Shown: positions 2,233 through 28,830 of the stretch, piece by piece | Layout of the letters: each line of letters begins with the position of its first letter | Position numbering within the stretch: the stretch's first letter is position 1 | Source of the DNA: a virus | IMG/VR virus record: IMGVR_UViG_3300032006_000039 | Span: 1-33,931 of that record | DNA: 33,931 nucleotides | Direction: 5' to 3' (one strand) | Position numbers and translations under genes: made by a program | The notes under the pieces: generated by a model | Databases searched by the model: none | What the model saw: the letters and a program-made list of their open reading frames with translations, nothing else | Told to the model about the DNA's origin: nothing

Positions 2233-3042
2233 ATGAAACATTGCATAAGCATACATGATATTGATGACTTGGGTAATGGAGAATTCTTTAGAACGGTTGA
2301 TATAATACGAAGTAATCAAATTGATTTCATGCAAGAAATGCATAATAGACTATTATGTAATTTGTTTTATGAACCATCCACCAGAACATCATCTTCTTTC
2401 GCCGCTGCCATGTATAAACTTGGTGGCCAAGTCTTATCTATTAATGATGTAAACTATTCTTCTGTTGCGAAAGGTGAGAACTTAGAAGATACTATATTGA
2501 CACTTGGTGAGTATTGTAATATAATAGTATTAAGAAGTAAAAATGCTGGTGATGCAGAGAAAGCATCATCTATTAGTAATGTCCCTATTATTAATGCTGG
2601 GGATGGATCAGGAGAACATCCTACACAGACATTGTTGGATCTGTATACCATTTTCAAACAATTTGGAAGAGTGTATAATCTAAAGGTTGCATTTATTGGT
2701 GATAATAAAAATAGTAGAACAGTTCATTCTTTAAATGATGCATTAGAAAGATGGTGTGAAATATTCTATATTGATGATTATGATTTATCCAAAATTCCAC
2801 AAGCAGATGTCTATTACTTTACGCGTGTACAACGTGAGCGTGGGAGTACTGGCTCATACAAATTAACTAAGGAACATATAGATCTATTACCTGATAACTG
2901 TATAGTCATGCATCCATTTCCAAGGAATGAAGAAATACCTAGATGGTTTGATTCTGATCCAAGGGCAAAATATTTTGAACAAATTAAAAATGGGCTATTT
3001 GTACGGATGGCACTTCTAAAAACTATAAATAGTACGTTATGA
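2233..3042 (+). CDS. pyrB: Aspartate carbamoyltransferase catalytic chain (phage PyrB)
   Basis: It would make N-carbamoyl-aspartate from carbamoyl phosphate and aspartate, the committed step of pyrimidine synthesis. The ATCase active site is nearly complete: carbamoyl-phosphate loop PSTRT (with S where most have R next), lysine loop SSVAKGENLED, HPTQTLLDLYTI, NSRTVHSL, TRVQRER, and HPFPR in place of HPLPR. At 269 aa it is about 40 residues shorter than bacterial PyrB. The main deletion lies between RTVHSL and TRVQ, in the aspartate domain, so this is a compact form. No regulatory chain is nearby. It sits alone behind its own early promoter between capsid and tail genes, which suggests an acquired gene supplying pyrimidines for replication. 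The start is probably leaderless. Confidence 0.9.
   Translation: MKHCISIHDIDDLGNGEFFRTVDIIRSNQIDFMQEMHNRLLCNLFYEPSTRTSSSFAAAMYKLGGQVLSINDVNYSSVAKGENLEDTILTLGEYCNIIVLRSKNAGDAEKASSISNVPIINAGDGSGEHPTQTLLDLYTIFKQFGRVYNLKVAFIGDNKNSRTVHSLNDALERWCEIFYIDDYDLSKIPQADVYYFTRVQRERGSTGSYKLTKEHIDLLPDNCIVMHPFPRNEEIPRWFDSDPRAKYFEQIKNGLFVRMALLKTINSTL
3024..3031 (+). promoter_or_regulatory. Candidate late promoter inside the end of pyrB
   Basis: Exact TATAAATA, 8 nt before the ATG of the next gene. It would give late genes downstream of early pyrB their own start. The octamer alone is expected a few times by chance in AT-rich sequence, so position is the main support. Confidence 0.5.
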
Positions 3043-10546: not shown

Positions 10547-11040
10547 ATATTTTTTATCTACACGAAAATCCAGAAATTTGTGCAGAATACCATTGTGATA
10601 AACACGTAGTGAAAATGATCTTGGAAACTGCGCAAATGTTATCAACTGCTCATCGGATTATTGATGGAGATAAATGGGCTAATGATGTGGGTCTATATAA
10701 AATGGCTCACAAAAATCATCCGTCTACTAAATGGGTACGGGAGAATTCTCAAAATTATCGATGGGCCTATCAATTGTTTGATGAGCTATTACAGCAATAT
10801 ACAATTCGTTATGGTAAACACCATGCAAGTGAACGTCTTTTGCACCCTCTTAAAAAGGTTCCTCATTTTATTAAACAGGCAAACAAAACAACAGAACCCC
10901 CACAATGTATGCCTGATGTATATAAAGGCGAGGATACTGTACTAGCTTATAGAAATTATTATATGTATGAAAAGGGCAGTTTTGCCGTTTGGAAAATACA
11001 AGAACCGGATTGGTGGAAGATAGAAGAATATGCAAGATAA
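10543..11040 (+). CDS. Conserved phage protein of unknown function (His-rich)
   Basis: 165 aa. It opens MNIFYLHENPEICAEYHCDK and continues HVVKMILETAQMLSTAHR. Later it has HKNHPSTKWVRENSQNYRWA, then QCMPDVYKGED and a Trp-rich end. I recognise this as a family recurrent in tailed phages, without an established role. The conserved His/Cys/Asp in HCDKH and the histidines in STAH and HKNHP look like an active site or metal site. It overlaps the upstream MazG-like gene and the downstream Rieske gene, so the three are likely co-translated. Confidence 0.8.
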   Translation: MNIFYLHENPEICAEYHCDKHVVKMILETAQMLSTAHRIIDGDKWANDVGLYKMAHKNHPSTKWVRENSQNYRWAYQLFDELLQQYTIRYGKHHASERLLHPLKKVPHFIKQANKTTEPPQCMPDVYKGEDTVLAYRNYYMYEKGSFAVWKIQEPDWWKIEEYAR

Positions 11041-12256
11041 TGATTACTTATGCCTGATAGAAAATGATGCACCGATGGGTAATGTCTTTCGGAATTTTTG
11101 GTTACCCGCATGCATGGCTGAAGAAGTAGAAGAAGATGGACCTCCAGTACGAACTAAGATGCTAGGAGAAGATCTTGTTGTCTTTAAAGATACAATGGGT
11201 CAAATTGGATGTTTAGCAAATGAATGTCCACATAGAGGGGCGCCATTACACAAAGCAAGAAATGAAGGATGTGGTCTTACCTGCTTATATCACGGTCTTA
11301 AAGTAAATGTAGATGGTGATATTGTGGGTATGAGATCTGATACCAAAAATGGTAGAGGATTTAAGACCATGAAAAACTATCCAGCAAAAGAGCAAGATGG
11401 TTTCATTTGGATTAATATGGGAGACAATCCTAGAAATCTATATCCTGCCAATTGGACTGGCGGTAGTATTGCAATTATTAAAGTTAAAGTTCCGTTCAAT
11501 TGGGCAACTGTTATAGAAGCTTCTATAGATTCTTCTCATAGTTCTACATTGCACCAATCAAATTTAAGAAAAGCTGATAAGAGCGCACAAACTACAAGTG
11601 TTGATCCCTATGATGGAATGTGGATTAGACCTGATGTTGATGGTGCACCAAGGATGAAAGCACTTGAAAAGCCTTATGGTTTAGTTGGAGCAGCTTTTAG
11701 AAATCCTGCTAATGGAGATCCAGATTTAGACTATATTAGAACTAGTATCTATATGATGCCTAATATGGTTAATATATCTCCTAACGATGATTACAATATA
11801 ACCTTTATGGTTATGCCAATTGATAACGAGAATACTATGTTTTATTGGATTGCTTGGCAAGATGATCCAAAGAAAAATGGTATCACCCAAGAACAATGGC
11901 GTCGTTTTACTAATGCAATACCTGGTGAAACACTTAATGAAGAATATGAATTCTATCCAATACATTGGAAACAAGATAGAGAAGCTATGAAGAATGGCGA
12001 TTGGACAGGATATACGGGTATTCCTATGCAAGATTTTGCTGTCTTCCCACCAGGAATTAGAGATAGAACAAGAGATCAGCTTATTGGTAGTGATGTATGG
12101 ATTTCTAAATGGAGACGCCATATGACTCAATTTGCCAAGAAAGCATCTAAAGGATCACTTCCAAGTGATTGTAGCGATTTGTATTCACAGATCCGTGGAC
12201 TAGAAGGTAATGTTCCAAAGGACTTCGACTGGACAGATCCCCTTATTTCTTCTTAG
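11030..12256 (+). CDS. Rieske non-haem iron aromatic-ring-type oxygenase
   Basis: 408 aa and apparently complete. The Rieske [2Fe-2S] domain has CPHRG and CLYH (C66, H68, C85, H88; CxH-x16-CxxH). The catalytic domain has the bridging Asp and iron ligands in EASIDSSHSSTLH (D167, H170, H175), with a carboxylate candidate in MQDFAVFPPG near residue 335. The whole resembles the phthalate-4,5-dioxygenase-like oxygenase alpha subunit. These enzymes hydroxylate or demethylate aromatic or N-methyl substrates and need a reductase, which is not encoded in the window. The host would have to supply it. It overlaps the upstream gene by 11 nt. The substrate cannot be told from sequence. Confidence 0.92.
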   Translation: MQDNDYLCLIENDAPMGNVFRNFWLPACMAEEVEEDGPPVRTKMLGEDLVVFKDTMGQIGCLANECPHRGAPLHKARNEGCGLTCLYHGLKVNVDGDIVGMRSDTKNGRGFKTMKNYPAKEQDGFIWINMGDNPRNLYPANWTGGSIAIIKVKVPFNWATVIEASIDSSHSSTLHQSNLRKADKSAQTTSVDPYDGMWIRPDVDGAPRMKALEKPYGLVGAAFRNPANGDPDLDYIRTSIYMMPNMVNISPNDDYNITFMVMPIDNENTMFYWIAWQDDPKKNGITQEQWRRFTNAIPGETLNEEYEFYPIHWKQDREAMKNGDWTGYTGIPMQDFAVFPPGIRDRTRDQLIGSDVWISKWRRHMTQFAKKASKGSLPSDCSDLYSQIRGLEGNVPKDFDWTDPLISS

Positions 12257-14430: not shown

Positions 14431-15555
14431 ATGAAGAAGATTCGTGTAGCAATTGTTGGAGCCGGTAATTGTTCCAGCGCCCTAGTTCAGGGTATTAATT
14501 ATTACCGTCATAATAAATCAAATGAAGTTCCTGGTGTTATGTATCCCGTTATTGGTGGCTATGGTGCTACTGATATTGAGGTTGTAGCCGCATTTGATGT
14601 TGACGAACGAAAAGTTGGCAAGCCATTAGGTGAAGCTATCTTTGAACAACCCAACAATACAAGAGTATTCCATACGGATATTGATGATGATGTCACAGTC
14701 CAAATGGGTATGCCCCTTGATGGTGTTGCCAAACATATGAGTGATTATCATGATGAAGTCAATTTTAAGATAAAAGATTGTCCTCATGCTGATGTAACTC
14801 GTATCTTAAAAGATCGTAAGGTTGATTTGGTTATTAACTATCTTCCAGTTGGATCTCAAAAGGCAACTGAATTCTATGTCAATGCAGCTCTTCAAGCAGA
14901 AACTGCATTTCTAAATTGCATTCCAGTATTTATTGCTTCTGATCCTAAATGGGAGAAGCGATTTATTGATGCAGGATTACCTATTGTAGGTGATGATATG
15001 AAGTCCCAATTTGGTGCTTCTATTCTGTCTCAAATTCTTCAAGAGACTCTTTTTAATCGTGGTCATAGTGTGGCTTTCCACCAACAATTGAATGTGGGTG
15101 GTAATACCGATTTTGCAAATATGATGGACCAATCTAGACTGGCATCTAAGAAAGAGTCTAAAGAGAATGTTATTCGTTGTCAGAATGATATTCGTGGTAT
15201 TCCAGTTCCAAAAGATGGAATTTATGCTGGACCCAGTTCCTTTATTCCATATCTTAAAGATAATAAGATTGCCTATATTAAGGTAGAGGCTGAAGGTTTT
15301 GGTGGAGCGCCAGTTGAAATTGATTGTAAACTATCTGTCCAAGATAGTCCGAATTCAGCAGGTGTTGTAATTGATGCTATCCGATTCTTGAAGGTAGCTC
15401 GTGAAATGGGAGTTGTTGGTTCTCTTCGTGGTCCTTCAGCTTGGACTCAAAAGACTCCTCCCGAACAAATGACAATTGAAGATGCAAAGGCGGAATGTGA
15501 TGCCCTCTCGGAAAGACAACTTACTGAATACACCTCAGCCCAGCTCGGTAGCTAA
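14431..15555 (+). CDS. ino1: Inositol-3-phosphate synthase (actinobacterial/archaeal type)
   Basis: 374 aa, like mycobacterial Ino1 (367 aa). It converts glucose-6-phosphate to inositol-1(3)-phosphate with NAD+. Visible motifs are the nucleotide-binding VAIVGAGNCSSALVQG (6-21), LPVGSQKATEFY, VFIASDPKW, the active-site lysine region IVGDDMKSQFGAS (about 188-200), QLNVGGNTDF and DSPNSAGVVIDAIR. A strong ribosome site (AGGAGGG) lies 6 nt before the ATG after a 53-nt gap, unusual in this tightly overlapping region and pointing to high or independent expression. The next gene, a HAD phosphatase, overlaps its 3' end. A complete enzyme of this family in a T4-like phage is unusual. Confidence 0.95.
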   Translation: MKKIRVAIVGAGNCSSALVQGINYYRHNKSNEVPGVMYPVIGGYGATDIEVVAAFDVDERKVGKPLGEAIFEQPNNTRVFHTDIDDDVTVQMGMPLDGVAKHMSDYHDEVNFKIKDCPHADVTRILKDRKVDLVINYLPVGSQKATEFYVNAALQAETAFLNCIPVFIASDPKWEKRFIDAGLPIVGDDMKSQFGASILSQILQETLFNRGHSVAFHQQLNVGGNTDFANMMDQSRLASKKESKENVIRCQNDIRGIPVPKDGIYAGPSSFIPYLKDNKIAYIKVEAEGFGGAPVEIDCKLSVQDSPNSAGVVIDAIRFLKVAREMGVVGSLRGPSAWTQKTPPEQMTIEDAKAECDALSERQLTEYTSAQLGS

Positions 15556-15985: not shown

Positions 15986-16128
15986 AAATCGATTGGAAGA
16001 AAGCCTTATCGGAAGGCTGGAAAGAGTCTAAGAAATATGGCAATATAGAAGGTCCAGAAAAATGGGCCCTCTATGTTGTTCTATTCTTTGTGATCTTTTT
16101 TAGCGTTGGTTACTGGTATGACAATTAA
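15982..16128 (+). CDS. Micro-membrane protein (48 aa)
   Basis: The ATG overlaps the HAD stop (ATGA), and the reading frame ends 11 nt inside the next gene. The sequence is a basic amphipathic N-terminus (MKIDWKKALSEGWKESKKYG) then one hydrophobic segment (WALYVVLFFVIFFSVGYWY, about residues 28-46) and a DN end. Positive charges before the membrane segment suggest an N-in orientation. The tight overlaps on both sides argue that it is translated. It could anchor the enzymes of this block at the inner membrane or alter the envelope; neither can be shown from sequence. Confidence 0.7.
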   Translation: MKIDWKKALSEGWKESKKYGNIEGPEKWALYVVLFFVIFFSVGYWYDN

Positions 16129-17179
16129 ATATAATTACGACTGGTGGTTATACGATAAAGAGATAATGCAAGACTTTAATTGGTTTCTATATAAAATCAA
16201 TCAAAGAGCTTGTATTAATCTCGGTTACCTAGATGAGACCTATGATGAAGTTAATCGCTTCGGGGAGGTGGATTATGGTCTAGGGAGGGATGTTGAATAC
16301 TTTCATCCAACTATTACATTGGATGATAGAATGAGATATATCGGCCAGGTTATTGCCCAAGCTGATATGTCTCTATTCAACATTCTAGGTAACACTATCA
16401 TTTCGCATTTTTATGGAGCACGTGGTGTACACCAAACAGTTACAGGGTCTAATGATCCTACTAACTGTTGGGTGGACTTTGATCGTGTTGAAAGAAATGA
16501 TCAAGAATATATTCAATGGTTAAGAGAAACTGTTGAACACGAAACTAAAGTAAATAAGAAACCAGTATGGGGAACTACCGAACTTCACACAGCCATTCAA
16601 GGAAGTTCTAGAAATTTTTGTAGAGAAAAATACGAAGATCCTGAAAGGCCTTTCCATACAACAGATGTTATTGAGTGGGTTGCTAGTTTTAAAACTATTG
16701 GTTTAGCTGATAAACTATTACATAAAGCTATTCATATCAAACACGCATATAATGAACTTACCAAGTTAAAAGGAATTGGTGAATATTATGGTTTCCATTG
16801 TGGTGCAAGTACAAGTGTATTACCACAAACGAGATATCACCATGACCAAAGATTTGTAGCACCTGGGCCTGGAGCAAGATATACCATTAAACTTATGTGG
16901 CCTGATGCTCCTGCTAAATATTATGATGAAGCCATTTATTTCCTAAGAGAAAATGGAGATGAAATTGGTCTTACTGATAATGTGCATTTTCATCCTAAAG
17001 CTTATAATATTGATAATATATTTCAATTTCCGCAAGATGGATTAAAATATTATGGCACTGAAGTTGTATCATGTCAGTTTGGTATATACCTTCAAATTCG
17101 TGAAGATAAAAAAGCATGTGAACGACGAAAAGTTTCAAGAATTGAAACAGCACCATCAACATTAGAGGCATTCCTATGA
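16118..17179 (+). CDS. HhH-type protein resembling alpha-glutamyl/putrescinyl-thymine pyrophosphorylase clade
   Basis: 353 aa. The central-to-C-terminal part has a helix-hairpin-helix-like LKGIGEYYGFHCGAS (217-231), a conserved Asp (D243 in YHHDQRF) and VAPGPGARYT (247-256), followed by a long helical tail with SCQFGIYLQIRE. This order resembles the DNA-glycosylase-related pyrophosphorylases that attach putrescine or glutamate to activated 5-hydroxymethyl-pyrimidines in phage DNA (phiW-14/SP10 type). The N-terminal half is not recognised. Placement in a block with a hydroxymethylase and glycosyltransferase supports base hypermodification. Similarity is by motif only and could reflect a generic HhH glycosylase fold. 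ATG 16118 is preferred over TTG 16106. Confidence 0.6.
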   Translation: MTIKYNYDWWLYDKEIMQDFNWFLYKINQRACINLGYLDETYDEVNRFGEVDYGLGRDVEYFHPTITLDDRMRYIGQVIAQADMSLFNILGNTIISHFYGARGVHQTVTGSNDPTNCWVDFDRVERNDQEYIQWLRETVEHETKVNKKPVWGTTELHTAIQGSSRNFCREKYEDPERPFHTTDVIEWVASFKTIGLADKLLHKAIHIKHAYNELTKLKGIGEYYGFHCGASTSVLPQTRYHHDQRFVAPGPGARYTIKLMWPDAPAKYYDEAIYFLRENGDEIGLTDNVHFHPKAYNIDNIFQFPQDGLKYYGTEVVSCQFGIYLQIREDKKACERRKVSRIETAPSTLEAFL

Positions 17180-18228
17180 CAGGTGTAGTAGCGGCTCCAT
17201 TTATTCCTATTTCAAAACAAATGCATTCTCATAGAGCAGCACAGGGTGCAATCTATGGAGATCTATTAAGACATATGCATAAAGACATATATGTTATGAT
17301 GTCTTTAGATCGTCTTAGAGATTATAATGACTATGATGAATTATATGTTTATCATGGAAATGACTGGGGTGGAGATTTAAACTTATTTGGTGGAGTTGCT
17401 AATTTCCCTCATGCATATAATTTCAGAAACTTCTCACAATTCAAAGGAAAGGTATATTCACTTGTTATTGATATGCCTGATTATCATGCTCAAGTATCTA
17501 GCAAGATTAAATCATCTGATGATAAAGATAAACCAGTTCAAGAAGAATGGCGAGAAGTTGATTGGGATAATCTTAAAAGGATGCAAGATACGTCGGAAAC
17601 AATTAACCCAGAACCAAATTGGCATAGACTATGTGCTGGCGATTCCCATGCTATTTGCATGTATAGGAATGGTTGGTTAGTTAATTCAGTACCATTCAAA
17701 ACTCTATATGGTGCTTTAGACATGGGTTTAGAACACTTTCTTCAGGGACGAAGTAAACTAACTGATGTTGAATTTTATTTTGGTAATATAGATATTAGGC
17801 ATCATATTTGTAGGCAGGAAAATCCTGAAGAATCCCTACTTTCGCTATGTGATAAATATATTAGTCAGGTTCGAGATTTAAAGATCAAGAACAAGGCTAT
17901 CTACGAACTCCTTCCAATTGAAAATCCATCTAGAACTATACCTAAATCTGGGTGGTTTCAAAACGAGCCATTTTATGGATCGTGGGATGAGCGTAATAAG
18001 ATGCGGCTTTTATTTAAGTCGTATATGAAAGATAATTGCCAGAAGAATGGAATAGTTTTCAAAGAGTGGATACCACCTGAATTTTATAATCAAGATGGTG
18101 AGCTTACTTTTGATGTAATGGAGAAACCTAAATCCGTACATCTATCCCGTGAATATTATCCGTATTGGCAAGGTAAAGAATGGAATGGCATCGAAGAAGA
18201 TGCCACGTTGGAAGGTTTTTGGGCATGA
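17176..18228 (+). CDS. SGNH-hydrolase-like protein with extra N-terminal domain
   Basis: 350 aa. From about residue 150 it shows SGNH blocks: LCAGDSHAICMY (nucleophile Ser in GDSH, 155-158), FGNIDIRHH (block III, Asn in GN, 202-210) and a late KPKSVHLS (block V His, about residue 326). The first 150 residues form a separate domain (DELYVYHGNDWGGDLNLFGG and following). SGNH proteins are esterases or acyl/acetyl transferases. Here one might trim or acylate a sugar- or base-linked group, but that is inference from its neighbours. It is coupled by ATGA overlaps to the genes on both sides. The usual block V Asp (DxxH) is replaced. Confidence 0.7.
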   Translation: MTGVVAAPFIPISKQMHSHRAAQGAIYGDLLRHMHKDIYVMMSLDRLRDYNDYDELYVYHGNDWGGDLNLFGGVANFPHAYNFRNFSQFKGKVYSLVIDMPDYHAQVSSKIKSSDDKDKPVQEEWREVDWDNLKRMQDTSETINPEPNWHRLCAGDSHAICMYRNGWLVNSVPFKTLYGALDMGLEHFLQGRSKLTDVEFYFGNIDIRHHICRQENPEESLLSLCDKYISQVRDLKIKNKAIYELLPIENPSRTIPKSGWFQNEPFYGSWDERNKMRLLFKSYMKDNCQKNGIVFKEWIPPEFYNQDGELTFDVMEKPKSVHLSREYYPYWQGKEWNGIEEDATLEGFWA

Positions 18229-19433
18229 AACACGCGACAATAATTCCGCTTATTGGCGGAGAAACCATAGCTTCCGAAAACGTCTTTGGATCCAGACCCG
18301 AATATATTTTATCATACAGCGCATTTAAAGATAATGAAAAACATTTAATTAATTATTACGATAACGAAATTCCATACCATATTTTAGATGAGGTCGATCA
18401 TCCTTTTCAGTTACCACCCATTGATGTTATGTCATCGGTTTGTCCATGTGCTGGACTTAGTCAGTATCATTCCAAACCAGGTGAAGGAAACCCAAACAAT
18501 GAATGGATGCTGAAAACTGCACATTATGTACTAGAAGAAGTTAAGCCAACGGTATTTTGGGGAGAGAATGCTCCTGGCCTTGCTGGTAAGATTGGAAAAT
18601 TTATACGAGACGAATTAAGAGAAATAAGTAAAGCTGCCGGATATACTATGAGTATATATCGAACCGGTTCTTTATTACACGGTGTTCCGCAAACTAGACA
18701 ACGTTCTTTCTATTTTTTCTGGAAAGGAAATAAAACTCCATTGCTGAATTATTACGATCGGCCATGGACAAAAATAGAGGACGTAATCTCGAATGTACAA
18801 TCCAATTTTCAAATGGAACCAATCAATACAAAAACACCGTCGAAAGATGACCCCTACTACCGGTACTTACTTGAAGTTGTGCATAATGGCATTAGTCATT
18901 CCGATTTTCAGGACCGATTAAAACAAAAAAATGCAAGAACCAATGATTGCCAATCCTTTACCGAGAGAGCTGGTCATACCTATGATAAGATCGGTGAATG
19001 GATGGGAGCCAATGGTTATGAGGGCGAAGTAGAAAAGTGTAAACGTAAACACCACAAATTAACTGTCCTCAAAGGTAATATTATGAGACGTGGAACAATT
19101 GTTCCAAAGGATTATATTGGAGCCTTTGTTGGTCACTATCCTACGAGCTTAACACACCCATATGAAGATAGATATATCACTTATCGTGAAGCTTTAACTA
19201 TTATGGGTATGCCATCTGACTATGAATTACTAGATCCAAAGAAATCAGTAAACCATATATGCCAAAATGTTCCAGTACAAACGGCAGAAGATATGGCAAC
19301 TGAAGTGAAGGAAGCTTTGGAAGGTAATAGGAACTGGTTAGATAGCACTTACATATTCCAAAATAATAACAATAATTCCTATGAACTATGGGATGAATCA
19401 ACGGGTGAAACGTTAGAAAGGTTTTTTGAATGA
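18225..19433 (+). CDS. Divergent C5-cytosine methyltransferase
   Basis: 402 aa. Dcm-type motifs: VCPCAGLS (motif IV, catalytic Cys about residue 75), GENAPGL (motif VI), HGVPQTRQRSF (motif VIII), ITYREALTIMGMP (motif IX) and ICQNVPVQTA in place of the motif X GNAVP-type sequence. The N-terminal SAM site is atypical: PLIGGETIASENVFG replaces the FxGxGG form, and the usual acidic motif II is unclear. ATG 18225 overlaps the SGNH stop and has GAAGG upstream; the longer ATG 18180 version is unlikely. It may methylate phage DNA, or make 5mC as a substrate for oxidation and further decoration. DNA already carrying C5-hydroxymethyl groups would not be a substrate. Confidence 0.85.
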   Translation: MKHATIIPLIGGETIASENVFGSRPEYILSYSAFKDNEKHLINYYDNEIPYHILDEVDHPFQLPPIDVMSSVCPCAGLSQYHSKPGEGNPNNEWMLKTAHYVLEEVKPTVFWGENAPGLAGKIGKFIRDELREISKAAGYTMSIYRTGSLLHGVPQTRQRSFYFFWKGNKTPLLNYYDRPWTKIEDVISNVQSNFQMEPINTKTPSKDDPYYRYLLEVVHNGISHSDFQDRLKQKNARTNDCQSFTERAGHTYDKIGEWMGANGYEGEVEKCKRKHHKLTVLKGNIMRRGTIVPKDYIGAFVGHYPTSLTHPYEDRYITYREALTIMGMPSDYELLDPKKSVNHICQNVPVQTAEDMATEVKEALEGNRNWLDSTYIFQNNNNNSYELWDESTGETLERFFE

Positions 19434-21567: not shown

Positions 21568-22494
21568 ATGTTATGGGTTGAAGACTATCGACCTAAGACT
21601 ATCGATGAAACAATACTACCGGAAAATCTCAAAGTTACATTTCAAACCTTTGTGGACAAAGGTGAAGTTCCTAATCTTTTGCTTACTGGTGGTCCTGGCA
21701 TTGGCAAAACCACTGTGGCTAGGGCTCTTCTTGAACAATGTGGCTTTGATTATTATGTCATTAATGGTAGTCTTGACGGGAATATCGATACTCTTAGACG
21801 TGATATTAAAAACTTTGCGTCGACTGTCTCGTTAACGGGTTCTCGTAAATTCGTTATCCTTGACGAAGCCGACTATCTAAATCCACAGTCTACTCAACCT
21901 GCTCTTCGTAATTTCATGGAAGAGTACTCAGGTAATTGTGGGTTTGTTCTGACCTGTAACTACAAAAATAAAATTATTGCACCCCTTCATTCTAGGTGTT
22001 CTGTTGTTGATTTTGTAATCCCAGTTGAGGAAAGGGCAAAACTAGCTTCATCATTCATGAAGCGCATTACCAAAATTCTAGATGAAAATAATATTGAATA
22101 TGAGCCAAAGGCTATTGCTGAACTCATTAACAATTATTTTCCAGATTGGCGTCGTATTCTTAATGAATTACAGCGTTATTCTGTAACTGGTAAGATCGAT
22201 CTTGGTATATTATCCAATGTCACAGATACTGTAATAAAAGAATTGATCGTATTCTTAAAAGAACGTAACTTTAAAGAAATGCGAAAATGGGTTGGTCAAA
22301 ATTCTGATGTTGAAGTATCTGTAATTCTTAGAGCGTTATATGATAAATCAAGTGAAGTTATGGATGATAAATCTATTCCACAATTGGTTGTTATCTTGGC
22401 AGATTATCAATATAAAGCAGCTTTTGTAGCAGATGGCGAACTTAATTTGGTTGCTTGTTTGACAGAGGTTATGAGTGAATGTCAGTTCCAGTAG
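21568..22494 (+). CDS. 44: Clamp-loader ATPase gp44
   Basis: 308 aa (T4: 319), AAA+ clamp-loader large subunit. Walker A GGPGIGKTT (about 41-49), Walker B FVILDEAD (about 94-101), sensor region FVLTCNYKNKI and the SRC arginine-finger motif in LHSRCSVVDF. The C-terminal collar domain is helical. It starts 3 nt after gp45. In T4 it is directly coupled to gp62; here two oxygenase genes intervene, the first overlapping the gp44 stop by 16 nt. Confidence 0.97.
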   Translation: MLWVEDYRPKTIDETILPENLKVTFQTFVDKGEVPNLLLTGGPGIGKTTVARALLEQCGFDYYVINGSLDGNIDTLRRDIKNFASTVSLTGSRKFVILDEADYLNPQSTQPALRNFMEEYSGNCGFVLTCNYKNKIIAPLHSRCSVVDFVIPVEERAKLASSFMKRITKILDENNIEYEPKAIAELINNYFPDWRRILNELQRYSVTGKIDLGILSNVTDTVIKELIVFLKERNFKEMRKWVGQNSDVEVSVILRALYDKSSEVMDDKSIPQLVVILADYQYKAAFVADGELNLVACLTEVMSECQFQ

Positions 22495-23072
22495 AAATTA
22501 AACCAGACAAAGATAGGACTTTTATTGAAGTATATGATAATGTGCTTTCTTCTGAATACTGTGCTGAATTAATTCAACGAATTGATAAGGATCCAAGACT
22601 CAAACGAGTTACGGATAATAAGACCTATGACTTACAACAGCTTATTTTATGGCAGTTGCATGATTGGGATGAAACCAATCAATTTTTAAGTCGTAAGTTT
22701 GCTGAACTGTCTCAAATGTATTATGATAAGTACATGCCATTATGGCCAGGTGATTTTCAATATGAGTCTATTAAGTTTAAAAAATATGACCATACAAAAG
22801 ATGAGCATTTTAAAGAACATGTAGATGTTGATGATGTTCGTTCATGTGTTAGATTTTTAACATCATTATGGTTTCTTAATGATATTGAATATGGTGGAGA
22901 AACTGTATTTACAGAACAAGGACTTCAAGTTCAACCAAGAGCTGGTAGGGTTATTTTATTCCCTCCTCTTTGGACTCATCCTCATTATTCAAATAAGGCG
23001 CCAAAAGAAGATAAGTTTATTTTTACACAGTATCTTCACTATTCAATTCAAAGTATGGATCCGCTAGTATGA
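22479..23072 (+). CDS. 2OG-Fe(II) oxygenase, prolyl-4-hydroxylase-like
   Basis: 197 aa double-stranded beta-helix dioxygenase. Iron ligands HVD (H114, D116), a distal His in WTHPHYS (H167 or H169) and the 2-oxoglutarate-binding basic residue K179 in KFIFTQYL. GGETVF and AGRVILFPP are typical of the P4H-type family common in marine phages. It hydroxylates an unknown protein, nucleotide or base. It is embedded in the clamp-loader operon with AGAGG 9 nt before the ATG, so it is made at early times with the replisome. Not TET/JBP-like by sequence appearance. Confidence 0.9.
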   Translation: MSVPVEIKPDKDRTFIEVYDNVLSSEYCAELIQRIDKDPRLKRVTDNKTYDLQQLILWQLHDWDETNQFLSRKFAELSQMYYDKYMPLWPGDFQYESIKFKKYDHTKDEHFKEHVDVDDVRSCVRFLTSLWFLNDIEYGGETVFTEQGLQVQPRAGRVILFPPLWTHPHYSNKAPKEDKFIFTQYLHYSIQSMDPLV

Positions 23073-24088
23073 CTATTGAAAATGAAGTTATTGATGGGTT
23101 ATTTGACTCACAAATGTTAACTTATGTGAGAAAGAAATATACAAACCAGATGACCTATAGTTGGAAAGCAAATGGGTATTCGGAATATGATCAAGGACAT
23201 TGGAATACTCAGGTCATACATAAACCAAGATTTCTGAATAATGTAAATCTAGCAGATACTCCCACATATAATGATCTACCAGAGATTCAATATATGTGGA
23301 ATAATTTATTAGGAGCATTCGGTCAGCCAAGAGGTCTATTGAGATGTTATTGTAATGGATACACTTTCGGGACTGATGGGTATATACATATAGATGAGAG
23401 GTCAGACCACCAAGGTGTTGCCTATGAAACTGTTGTTGTTTACCTGAATGAAGGTAAGTGGGAGATGGATTGGGCTGGTGAAACTATTATCTATAATTCT
23501 GCAGAAGAACCAGAATTTGTTTGTAAACCAGCTCATGGAAGAACTTTAATTTTCAACTCTCAAAAATGGCATAGAGCTTTGCCAGTGTCTAGAGTTTATG
23601 GTGGTTTAAGAACCATTATAACTTTTAAAACATGCGATCCAAATATAAAGGATGAGCGATTTTATTTTATTAAAGAACAGACAGAAGGTATTCCACATAG
23701 TGGTCGGGATTTCTTTACACATTCATGGAATGTGTCTATGATTTTACAGGAACAATTACAAGCCAGTAAAACAACATGTCTTGCTGGATTATATCATGCT
23801 GGTGTGTATGGTACTGTCTTCTTTGATAATATTAAAGAACGATTAAGCAGGGATAAAGTTAAAGAAATTATCGGAGAAGAAGCCGAAAATATAGTTTGTG
23901 CATATTCACTATTAGGAGAAAATAGGACCCAAGATCTCATACAGCGAAATGGAGAATGGACTGACAGAGAGTGGGGTAGACTTCTTCAAATTGAAGTAGC
24001 TAATACAATAGATCAAAAAGGTATTAACGGTCCCGTAAATCAAATGATGGACCTGATTGCTGAGATCAAAACGAAAGATGAACTATGA
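23069..24088 (+). CDS. 2OG-Fe(II) oxygenase fused to a DUF6817/HD-like domain
   Basis: 339 aa with two domains. Residues 1-190: beta-helix dioxygenase with HID (H107, D109), distal His in KWHRALPVS (H168) and 2OG-binding Arg in GLRTIITF (R181). Residues 210-330: FTHSWNVSMILQEQ, LAGLYHAGVYGT and KVKEIIGEEAENIVCAYSLL, the pattern of DUF6817, an HD-like helical domain with conserved His. The pairing suggests oxidation coupled to hydrolysis or binding of a product, a combination whose chemistry I cannot assign. It overlaps both neighbours by 4 nt. It probably did not arise by recent duplication of the 22479 gene, since outside the iron ligands the two look unlike. Confidence 0.85.
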   Translation: MTIENEVIDGLFDSQMLTYVRKKYTNQMTYSWKANGYSEYDQGHWNTQVIHKPRFLNNVNLADTPTYNDLPEIQYMWNNLLGAFGQPRGLLRCYCNGYTFGTDGYIHIDERSDHQGVAYETVVVYLNEGKWEMDWAGETIIYNSAEEPEFVCKPAHGRTLIFNSQKWHRALPVSRVYGGLRTIITFKTCDPNIKDERFYFIKEQTEGIPHSGRDFFTHSWNVSMILQEQLQASKTTCLAGLYHAGVYGTVFFDNIKERLSRDKVKEIIGEEAENIVCAYSLLGENRTQDLIQRNGEWTDREWGRLLQIEVANTIDQKGINGPVNQMMDLIAEIKTKDEL

Positions 24089-27077: not shown

Positions 27078-27285
27078 ATATGTAGTAAAAAGAGTTCTTG
27101 GTGGGAAGGTGAGTGTCGAGTATACGACTGACTCTGCCAATGATGCCTGGAATTGGGTTATGACTTCTCAGTCTCCAACTCAATTGGTAGTAACAAACGG
27201 TAGTACCACCATTCGACCACCTAAGTGGTTTTTGAACAATGTGACTGATTATGGAAGGCCTGGTCGGGTTAATGTTGCCACCTGA
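27070..27285 (+). CDS. Small hypothetical protein
   Basis: 71 aa. Strand-rich (EYVVKRVLGGKVSVEYTTDS), then NDAWNWVMTSQSPTQLVV and a Pro/Asn tail. ATG 27070 is chosen over 27049 because GGAGGAG sits 4 nt upstream and the ATG overlaps the preceding stop region. Its own stop codon falls in the first stem of the tRNA-like RNA described next. Function unknown. Confidence 0.65.
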   Translation: MSEYVVKRVLGGKVSVEYTTDSANDAWNWVMTSQSPTQLVVTNGSTTIRPPKWFLNNVTDYGRPGRVNVAT

Positions 27286-27345
27286 CATAATGCAACAGCG
27301 ATAATGTCAGTATCGTAGCGGGGGGTTCAATTCCCCCCACTTCCT
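27282..27345 (+). ncRNA. tRNA-like structured RNA (3' half only)
   Basis: Bases 27299-27315 form a 5-bp stem CGATA/TATCG around the 7-nt loop ATGTCAG (U33 present, GTC in the anticodon position, Asp-like). A 5-nt spacer leads to a perfect T arm GGGGG-TTCAATT-CCCCC (27321-27337), then CACTTCC like an acceptor 3' strand. No matching 5' acceptor strand (GGAAGTG) or GG-containing D loop precedes it. An alternative 7-bp stem CTGACAT/ATGTCAG (27282-27288, 27304-27310) competes. It may be a decayed tRNA, a tRNA mimic or a double hairpin. Confidence 0.35.
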
Positions 27346-27391
27346 TTATTAATCTTTTGTTAAATTTCGAATTTGTAAAATAAATATTTGG

Positions 27392-27417
27392 AGCACAATA
27401 GTGTGCTTTTTATTTTT
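27392..27417 (+). terminator. Intrinsic terminator before the Na/Pi gene
   Basis: Stem AGCACA/TGTGCT (27392-27397, 27402-27407), loop ATAG, then a T-rich tail. It ends the plus-strand island transcript. The next gene starts 18 nt later with no promoter in the gap, so it depends on read-through or on a start within the upstream AT-rich stretch (27346-27391). Confidence 0.8.
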
Positions 27418-27434
27418 GTACAAGGAGCTCAAAC

Positions 27435-27905
27435 GTGGGCGACAAACTTATTAAAAAGGTTAAGAAAATGGATCTTGGTAATCCCGTAATCACCGCCCTC
27501 GTTGGATTGGTGGTTTTTTATATTGGACTAAAGATGTTTTCCGGCGGTATGAAATCAATGGGAAACTTAGATCACCTATCATATTTCATTCATAATCCAT
27601 ATTGGATGTTCCTAGGTGGTATTATTATGACTCTTCTATGGCAATCTTCATCTCTATCAACGACTGCCATAATTGCTCTTGTGGCATCAGGAGCAGTCCC
27701 GCTACCGGCAGCAGTTGCAGCCGTTTTAGGGGCAAACATAGGTACCACCGGCACCATTTGGTTAGCCGGATTTTTTGTATCTGATGGTATGCCAAAAGGT
27801 GATACGTTACGAATAGCTATGGCTCATACTGGTATGAACTTATTGATGGCTGTATCGTTACTACCATTCGTTCATCATATTGGACGATTCCTTGCAAGAT
27901 TTTAG
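27435..27905 (+). CDS. Half-length Na+/phosphate symporter-family membrane protein
   Basis: 156 aa integral membrane protein with about three to four hydrophobic segments. It holds one PF02690-type (NptA/YjbB-like) repeat: LWQSSSLSTTAII (QSSS at 70-73) and VLGANIGTTGT (99-105), the residues that form the Na+/Pi site. Full transporters have two such repeats in inverted orientation; here only one is encoded, so it might work as a dimer or alter the host transporter. Start GTG with AAGGAG 8 nt upstream. It is framed by terminators and promoters as an independent cassette. Phosphate supply is a common theme of marine phage metabolic genes; this family is unusual among them. Confidence 0.88.
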   Translation: MGDKLIKKVKKMDLGNPVITALVGLVVFYIGLKMFSGGMKSMGNLDHLSYFIHNPYWMFLGGIIMTLLWQSSSLSTTAIIALVASGAVPLPAAVAAVLGANIGTTGTIWLAGFFVSDGMPKGDTLRIAMAHTGMNLLMAVSLLPFVHHIGRFLARF

Positions 27906-27931: not shown

Positions 27932-27968
27932 GTTTACATTAACTCCCAGATAGTATACTATATAAATA
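27932..27968 (+). promoter_or_regulatory. Combined early and late promoter (hsp20)
   Basis: Early elements GTTTAC (27932-27937), 18 nt, TACTAT (27956-27961). Overlapping it at 27961-27968 is an exact late octamer TATAAATA. Both would transcribe hsp20. An ATG at 27969 opens a 5-codon mini-ORF (MMDAA) near the early start site. Confidence 0.78.
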
Positions 27969-28527: not shown

Positions 28528-28830
28528 ATGGATGCCGTGAAAGAAGAGAAAGAATTGAAAGAGCACGAACACGCTTCGAAGACTCTTACCCCAAAAAAAG
28601 AACATCATCCTTTTAGTTGGTGGTTGAAATGGGCATCATCAATTGTCTTGATTTTTGCAATGATCTTGACAACCCATAACCTATGGCCTTGGAATATGTT
28701 TCTTCAATTTGTTGGAGTAGCTGGATGGCTTTGGGTATCTATTATTTGGAATGATAGAGCACTTATCGTGGTAAATGCAGTTGCAGCAAGTATCTTTATG
28801 AACGGGATTGTTGGATATATAATTAAATGA
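28528..28830 (+). CDS. Small membrane protein upstream of gp43 (DUF6552-like)
   Basis: 100 aa. The charged N-terminus (VKEEKELKEHEHASKTLTPK) is followed by about three hydrophobic segments (33-50, 54-72, 78-98) with WNDRALIVVNAVAASIF. I recognise a similar WNDRALIVVNA protein next to gp43 in marine T4-like phages; no function is known to me. It overlaps gp43 by 4 nt. No ribosome site is evident before ATG 28528; ATG 28532 is out of frame. Confidence 0.75.
   Translation: MDAVKEEKELKEHEHASKTLTPKKEHHPFSWWLKWASSIVLIFAMILTTHNLWPWNMFLQFVGVAGWLWVSIIWNDRALIVVNAVAASIFMNGIVGYIIK

Follow-up and report, generated by a model that had tools for sequence, protein, structure and literature searches.

Transporters built of inverted repeats are thought to derive from single repeats that were active as antiparallel dimers before their fusion and, to our knowledge, the unfused form survives in few families. 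The NptA-type and animal SLC34 cotransporters share QSSS and GAN.GTT.T-type motifs with the phage protein described here, but they carry two repeats in chains of about 370–650 aa, whereas the phage protein, which can be aligned to either of their repeats, has a single repeat in 156 aa and differs in residues W69, G106 and W109. The PhoU-type transporters (the class of Escherichia coli YjbB) belong to the same Pfam family and have two QSSS-type repeats, the phage protein being similar to either one; however, their longer members add a C-terminal region and their repeats form clades apart from the phage clade. The small single-repeat membrane proteins SMR (EmrE) and Fluc dimerise to work and are seen as models of how inverted-repeat transporters arose (PMC9574504, PMC3755343); they are unrelated to the phage protein, and their singletons have a near-zero charge bias, in contrast to the value of +4 obtained here.

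In marine phages, the Pfam family Na_Pi_cotrans (PF02690), which is also that of the present gene, has been described from eight subgroup I genomes of HMO-2011-type phages and proposed as an auxiliary gene for phosphate uptake, in a paper whose section on metabolic genes mentions neither a single-repeat architecture nor T4-like phages (PMC9038755). That gene and the one described here very likely represent the same family, since group C of the phage proteins that we compared includes HMO-2011-type phages. No other virus paper naming PF02690 and no report of the single-repeat form was found in the open, non-subscription literature. The single-repeat architecture, its constancy, its occurrence in two types of phage, residues W69, G106 and W109, and the charge evidence are new.

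The window, i.e. the whole stretch of DNA analysed, comes from a virus record, measures 33.9 kb and bears T4-like genes. The DNA polymerase that it encodes shares 45% identity with its counterpart in Phage C48C1 and about 44% with those of cyanomyoviruses; by our own reading of the matches, the window also has capsid-, clamp-, UvsX- and gp46/47-like ORFs. The single-repeat Na/Pi cotransporter homolog (27435–27905, plus strand; 156 aa) was delimited by its ORF, its PF02690 match, its relatives and an AlphaFold2 model. It starts with GTG, preceded at 7 nt by AAGGAG (27422–27427, plus strand), a likely ribosome-binding site. The protein gave one match to PF02690, over residues 28–154 (E 2.5e-16; 60.4 bits, above the gathering cut-off of 29.1), and remained below the curated cut-offs of NCBIfam TIGR00704 (48.9 bits; cut-off 210.1), NF037997 (48.2 bits; cut-off 50) and TIGR01013 (31.1 bits; cut-off 306.15). 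According to the alignment of phage proteins, the motifs QSSS (residues 70–73, codons 27642–27653, plus strand), at the tip of a predicted re-entrant hairpin, and GANIGTT (residues 99–105, codons 27729–27749, plus strand) are intact, and W69 (27639–27641), G106 (27750–27752) and W109 (27759–27761) are constant in the phage proteins compared. Both the intact motifs and the presence of a single repeat agree with the first-pass annotation of this DNA.

The search for a second half gave negative results throughout. PF02690 matched once in the whole window and once in each of nine relatives of 38–154 kb, and the family profile, searched to E 10, found one copy in each of seven large records (including those of 154 kb and 123 kb), all of these being virus records of unproven completeness. 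A frameshifted second half, which had been named beforehand as an observation that would count against a single-repeat gene, was likewise not found. Neither the window protein nor its phage relatives carry two inverted repeats in one chain; among the loci read, two-repeat chains occurred only in a contig of a gut bacterial genome (L088) and in a contig of the viral collection with recombinase-like and response-regulator-like ORFs (L297). The phage gene is thus a real, widespread single-repeat variant of the Na/Pi cotransporter family. The name Na/Pi symporter is withheld from its product because two repeats in one chain, a defining feature of the transporters of the family, are absent, although a symporter-like action may be possible.

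Relatives are encoded in at least 596 IMG/VR stretches, and all 164 distinct phage proteins compared are single repeats, with a constant length of 140–165 aa in hundreds of genomes. The gene is carried by T4-like myoviruses and by podoviruses of the HMO-2011 type. T4-like genes lie alongside it in groups A and B wherever the type of phage could be told; group C includes HMO-2011-type podoviruses, with one locus (L173) matching Roseobacter phage CRP-7 and HMO-2011, and T4-like genes are present at some of its loci. No homolog of the window protein was detected at E 0.01 among 50,697 phage records, the same records gave nothing meaningful for the single-repeat protein of contig L087, and a tblastn search of the window protein against plasmids gave no match.

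Residues S71, S72, S73, G99, A100, N101, G103, T104, T105 and T107 are invariant in the 164 distinct phage proteins, and Q70 is present in 163 of them, so the motif residues, whose lack of conservation the first-pass annotation would have taken as contrary evidence, are essentially fixed. Two-repeat transporters use these residues in both halves for Na+ and phosphate; in the NptA-type transporters, nearly every one of these positions is occupied identically in both repeats, and one chain could therefore play both roles. Q70, S71, S72, T104 and T107 align, by a correspondence that we set from the spacing to QSSS, with Q417, S418, S419, T451 and T454, which are assigned to the Na3 site in a model of human NaPi-IIa (PMC6325988). 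On the other hand, W69, G106 and W109 are phage-specific, being absent or nearly so in the sampled cellular repeats, and they adjoin the site motifs; the substrate could therefore differ, and these residues may mark an altered substrate or assembly. The ORF was kept in all 80 first-round relatives, and among these 80 close relatives the median dN/dS over the measurable pairs was 0.083, with saturated synonymous sites. Because of this retention, this saturation and a dN/dS of about 0.08, a chance ORF or a decaying gene is excluded for 27435–27905; the gene is long-lived and under strong purifying selection.

The immediate surroundings of the gene were compared with those of a related locus (L002). 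A tRNA-like cloverleaf (27253–27344, plus strand; fold z −2.9) shares 73% identity with a region of L002 in which ARAGORN called a tRNA-Tyr whose anticodon is the unusual ATA; in the window itself, neither ARAGORN nor Rfam (curated cut-offs) called the cloverleaf. Immediately 5' of the gene, a terminator-like hairpin followed by a U-run (27390–27420, plus strand) was recognised by folding and is 96% conserved in L002 over 85 bases. It ends about 15 nt 5' of the start codon, so that transcription either reads through it or begins unusually close to the gene; it is possibly an attenuator or a processing site.

The first-pass annotation had placed the gene as an isolated cassette between a terminator and the promoter of hsp20. 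As to the terminator, the hairpin and U-run at 27390–27420 fit this description, but the G-rich hairpin at 27320–27338 does not, being the T-arm of the cloverleaf. A T4-type late-promoter-like site, TATAAATA, does precede hsp20 (27961–27968, plus strand), but sites of this kind occur in the window no more often than expected by chance. Isolation is borne out by the lack of conserved neighbours, but the interval from the hairpin to the gene yielded no separate promoter. Clustering of the neighbouring genes over 206 loci gave 223 clusters, the largest comprising 21 genes; the gene therefore has no obligate neighbouring partner and travels alone. A DUF6552 membrane protein (PF20189) is encoded at 28528–28830 of the window, between hsp20 and the DNA polymerase, and in nine group A loci a PF20189 gene is likewise found at varying distances, up to about 5 kb, from the transporter gene.

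Other genes of the window were also recorded. Those at 2233–3042, 11030–12256, 14431–15555 and 22479–24088 are possibly host-derived, with matches to aspartate/ornithine carbamoyltransferase, a Rieske oxygenase with a LigXa-like C-terminus, myo-inositol-1-phosphate synthase and two 2OG-Fe(II) oxygenases. A 5-hmdU DNA kinase-like helical domain and a C5 cytosine methyltransferase (16106–17179 and 18180–19433) hint at modified phage DNA. A relative of 154 kb (G001), whose transporter copy is 97% identical, carries a permuted tmRNA of alphaproteobacterial type (L082, 17559–17960, minus strand; Rfam alpha_tmRNA, 110 bits; tag ANDNFASEEFALAA), which hints at an alphaproteobacterial host.

Cellular homologues were surveyed in genomes of Bacteroidota, Bacillota and Chloroflexota. 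PF02690 was present in 117 of 296, 32 of 41 and 30 of 151 genomes, respectively, and its matches were mostly paired, in ORFs of at least about 300 aa. Several weakly matching Chloroflexota genomes showed one match, but in ORFs of 386–506 aa, where the second repeat may be sub-threshold. Among the matches listed, the single-copy exceptions were L086, L087, G338, G077 and G342. The last three correspond to a gene cut by the contig end, an internal stop and a probable frameshift, respectively. L086 and L087, contigs binned into MAGs, are probably phage contigs; L087 is short, and a phage origin is suggested for it mainly by its kinship with viral copies. In this contig (85–2888; Flavobacteriales MAG), the single-repeat gene follows, as judged by eye, apparent genes for an ammonium transporter and a BMP-family lipoprotein, possibly a nutrient-uptake cluster. 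Pseudomonadota were represented by E. coli YjbB and by two gammaproteobacterial copies found among the plasmids, each with two repeats. In the three phyla sampled, both repeats are joined in one chain.

The tree of repeats, built on 97 columns, resolved five groups with bootstrap values of 98–100: NptA-type RU1 and RU2, PhoU-type RU1 and RU2, and the phage repeats. The phage clade is deep, with a long branch, and is nested in no sampled half of the two-repeat transporters, to which the phage repeats are 26–28% identical in the alignment. Its placements with RU1 or RU2 were all statistically allowed (AU p 0.45–0.52 where a test was needed), and the dating of the clade relative to the duplication of the repeat, as "ancestral", was therefore dropped.

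An AlphaFold2 model obtained with 80 diverse sequences (pLDDT 89, pTM 0.77) showed a basic N-terminal helix (residues 2–11) and, with the membrane assignment of the helices being our own reading, a transmembrane helix (17–41), a hairpin (55–69/72–84) with QSSS at its tip, and two further transmembrane helices (90–115 and 123–154). A model with 24 close relatives (pLDDT 55) was set aside. The predicted repeat unit is therefore composed of three membrane crossings and one re-entrant hairpin with QSSS. With three crossings, the two termini would face different sides of the membrane, a layout expected if tandem fusion is to turn such a unit into an inverted repeat. Fold comparison with the first of these models gave weak matches, the best being 9x2m (Z 7.0), with fly INDY at Z 5.3, in the warning range of the tool. 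Zebrafish SLC34A2a (9z60), the nearest solved relative, was absent from these matches; both of its repeats match by sequence, with 35.0 and 34.2 bits.

The K+R bias, counted for an N-in orientation, was +4 for the window protein, and the group medians were +4 (A), +5 (B) and −1 (C). The count recovered the inverted halves of two-repeat transporters, both PhoU-type (RU1 −3.8, RU2 +2.6) and NptA-type (RU1 +3.2, RU2 −4.2). For SMR proteins, the published values go beyond ±2 in only 3% of singletons and are centred on ±4 in fixed pairs (PMC9574504); the comparison is approximate because the published formula adds the N-terminal amino group and the start codons were here set by rule. A bias within about ±2, as expected of dual topology, was found for the median of group C; the window protein and the medians of groups A and B lie outside this range. 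The charge pattern of the myovirus copies thus predicts one fixed orientation. A homodimer rebuilding the substrate site, as proposed in the first-pass annotation, needs an antiparallel (dual-topology) pair; with +4 to +5 in the window and most myovirus copies and a median of −1 in the podovirus copies, this proposal suits the podovirus group better than the group of the window.

The gene adjoins phage genes (T4-like DNA polymerase, hsp20 and others) and is kin to a cellular metabolic family, as is characteristic of auxiliary metabolic genes. The reading that we prefer, tentatively and with somewhat less than even confidence, is a phage auxiliary metabolic gene whose product, a full single repeat unit of the Na+/Pi cotransporter family, self-assembles into an importer. 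During infection, the protein would insert into the host inner membrane, its copies would associate with each other so that two hairpins rebuild the two-fold site, this site would move phosphate or a similar anion with Na+, and the imported phosphate would feed the synthesis of virion DNA. An antiparallel dimer would match the arrangement in two-repeat transporters, but mixed insertion is disfavoured by the charges of the myovirus copies. A broader proposal, that the free-standing repeat of hundreds of marine phages works alone as an oligomer and represents a pre-duplication stage of this transporter fold, either surviving or re-created, with versions of fixed orientation in myoviruses and neutral ones in podoviruses, is considered rather doubtful.

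It is unlikely that the protein, rather than transporting alone, docks onto a two-repeat Na/Pi transporter of the host, or replaces one of its repeats, and changes its activity during infection. The bias of groups A and B (+4 and +5) does resemble that of one member of a fixed pair, and the phage records searched show no partner gene, but the almost complete conservation of ligand residues in 164 proteins exceeds the needs of a pure modulator, the identity to two-repeat proteins is only 26–28%, and the same gene in very different phages would require a partner in many hosts. A parallel oligomer of fixed orientation, acting as a channel or as a carrier of another anion or solute rather than as a Na+/phosphate symporter, would agree with the strong N-in bias of groups A and B, with W69, G106 and W109 beside the site motifs and with the separate deep clade of the phage repeats; this is improbable, since the protein keeps the residues that a model of NaPi-IIa places in the Na3 site (PMC6325988) and a parallel arrangement appears to be without precedent in the family. 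An unlinked and unrecognised second subunit of opposite orientation, encoded by phage or host, is quite improbable: records up to 154 kb show no second PF02690-like gene at E 10 and the neighbouring genes are not conserved, even though in charge bias the protein is similar to one member of a fixed antiparallel pair (PMC9574504). Finally, a truncated or decaying, functionless remnant of a full-length host transporter, suggested by the presence of only half of the cellular gene, was rejected on the dN/dS of about 0.08 with saturated synonymous sites and is scarcely credible with a length of 140–165 aa in hundreds of genomes and invariant site residues.

The phage family carries every site residue in one repeat, in a transporter family that is fused in the bacterial phyla sampled, and it offers a small protein for asking whether half of a Na+/phosphate symporter can transport. 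These data also advise caution, as an auxiliary gene annotated as "Na/Pi cotransporter" may encode less than a whole transporter, and they bear on the acquisition of phosphate by marine phages. If the single repeat works alone, the step from dual to fixed topology would be testable with the myovirus and podovirus versions.
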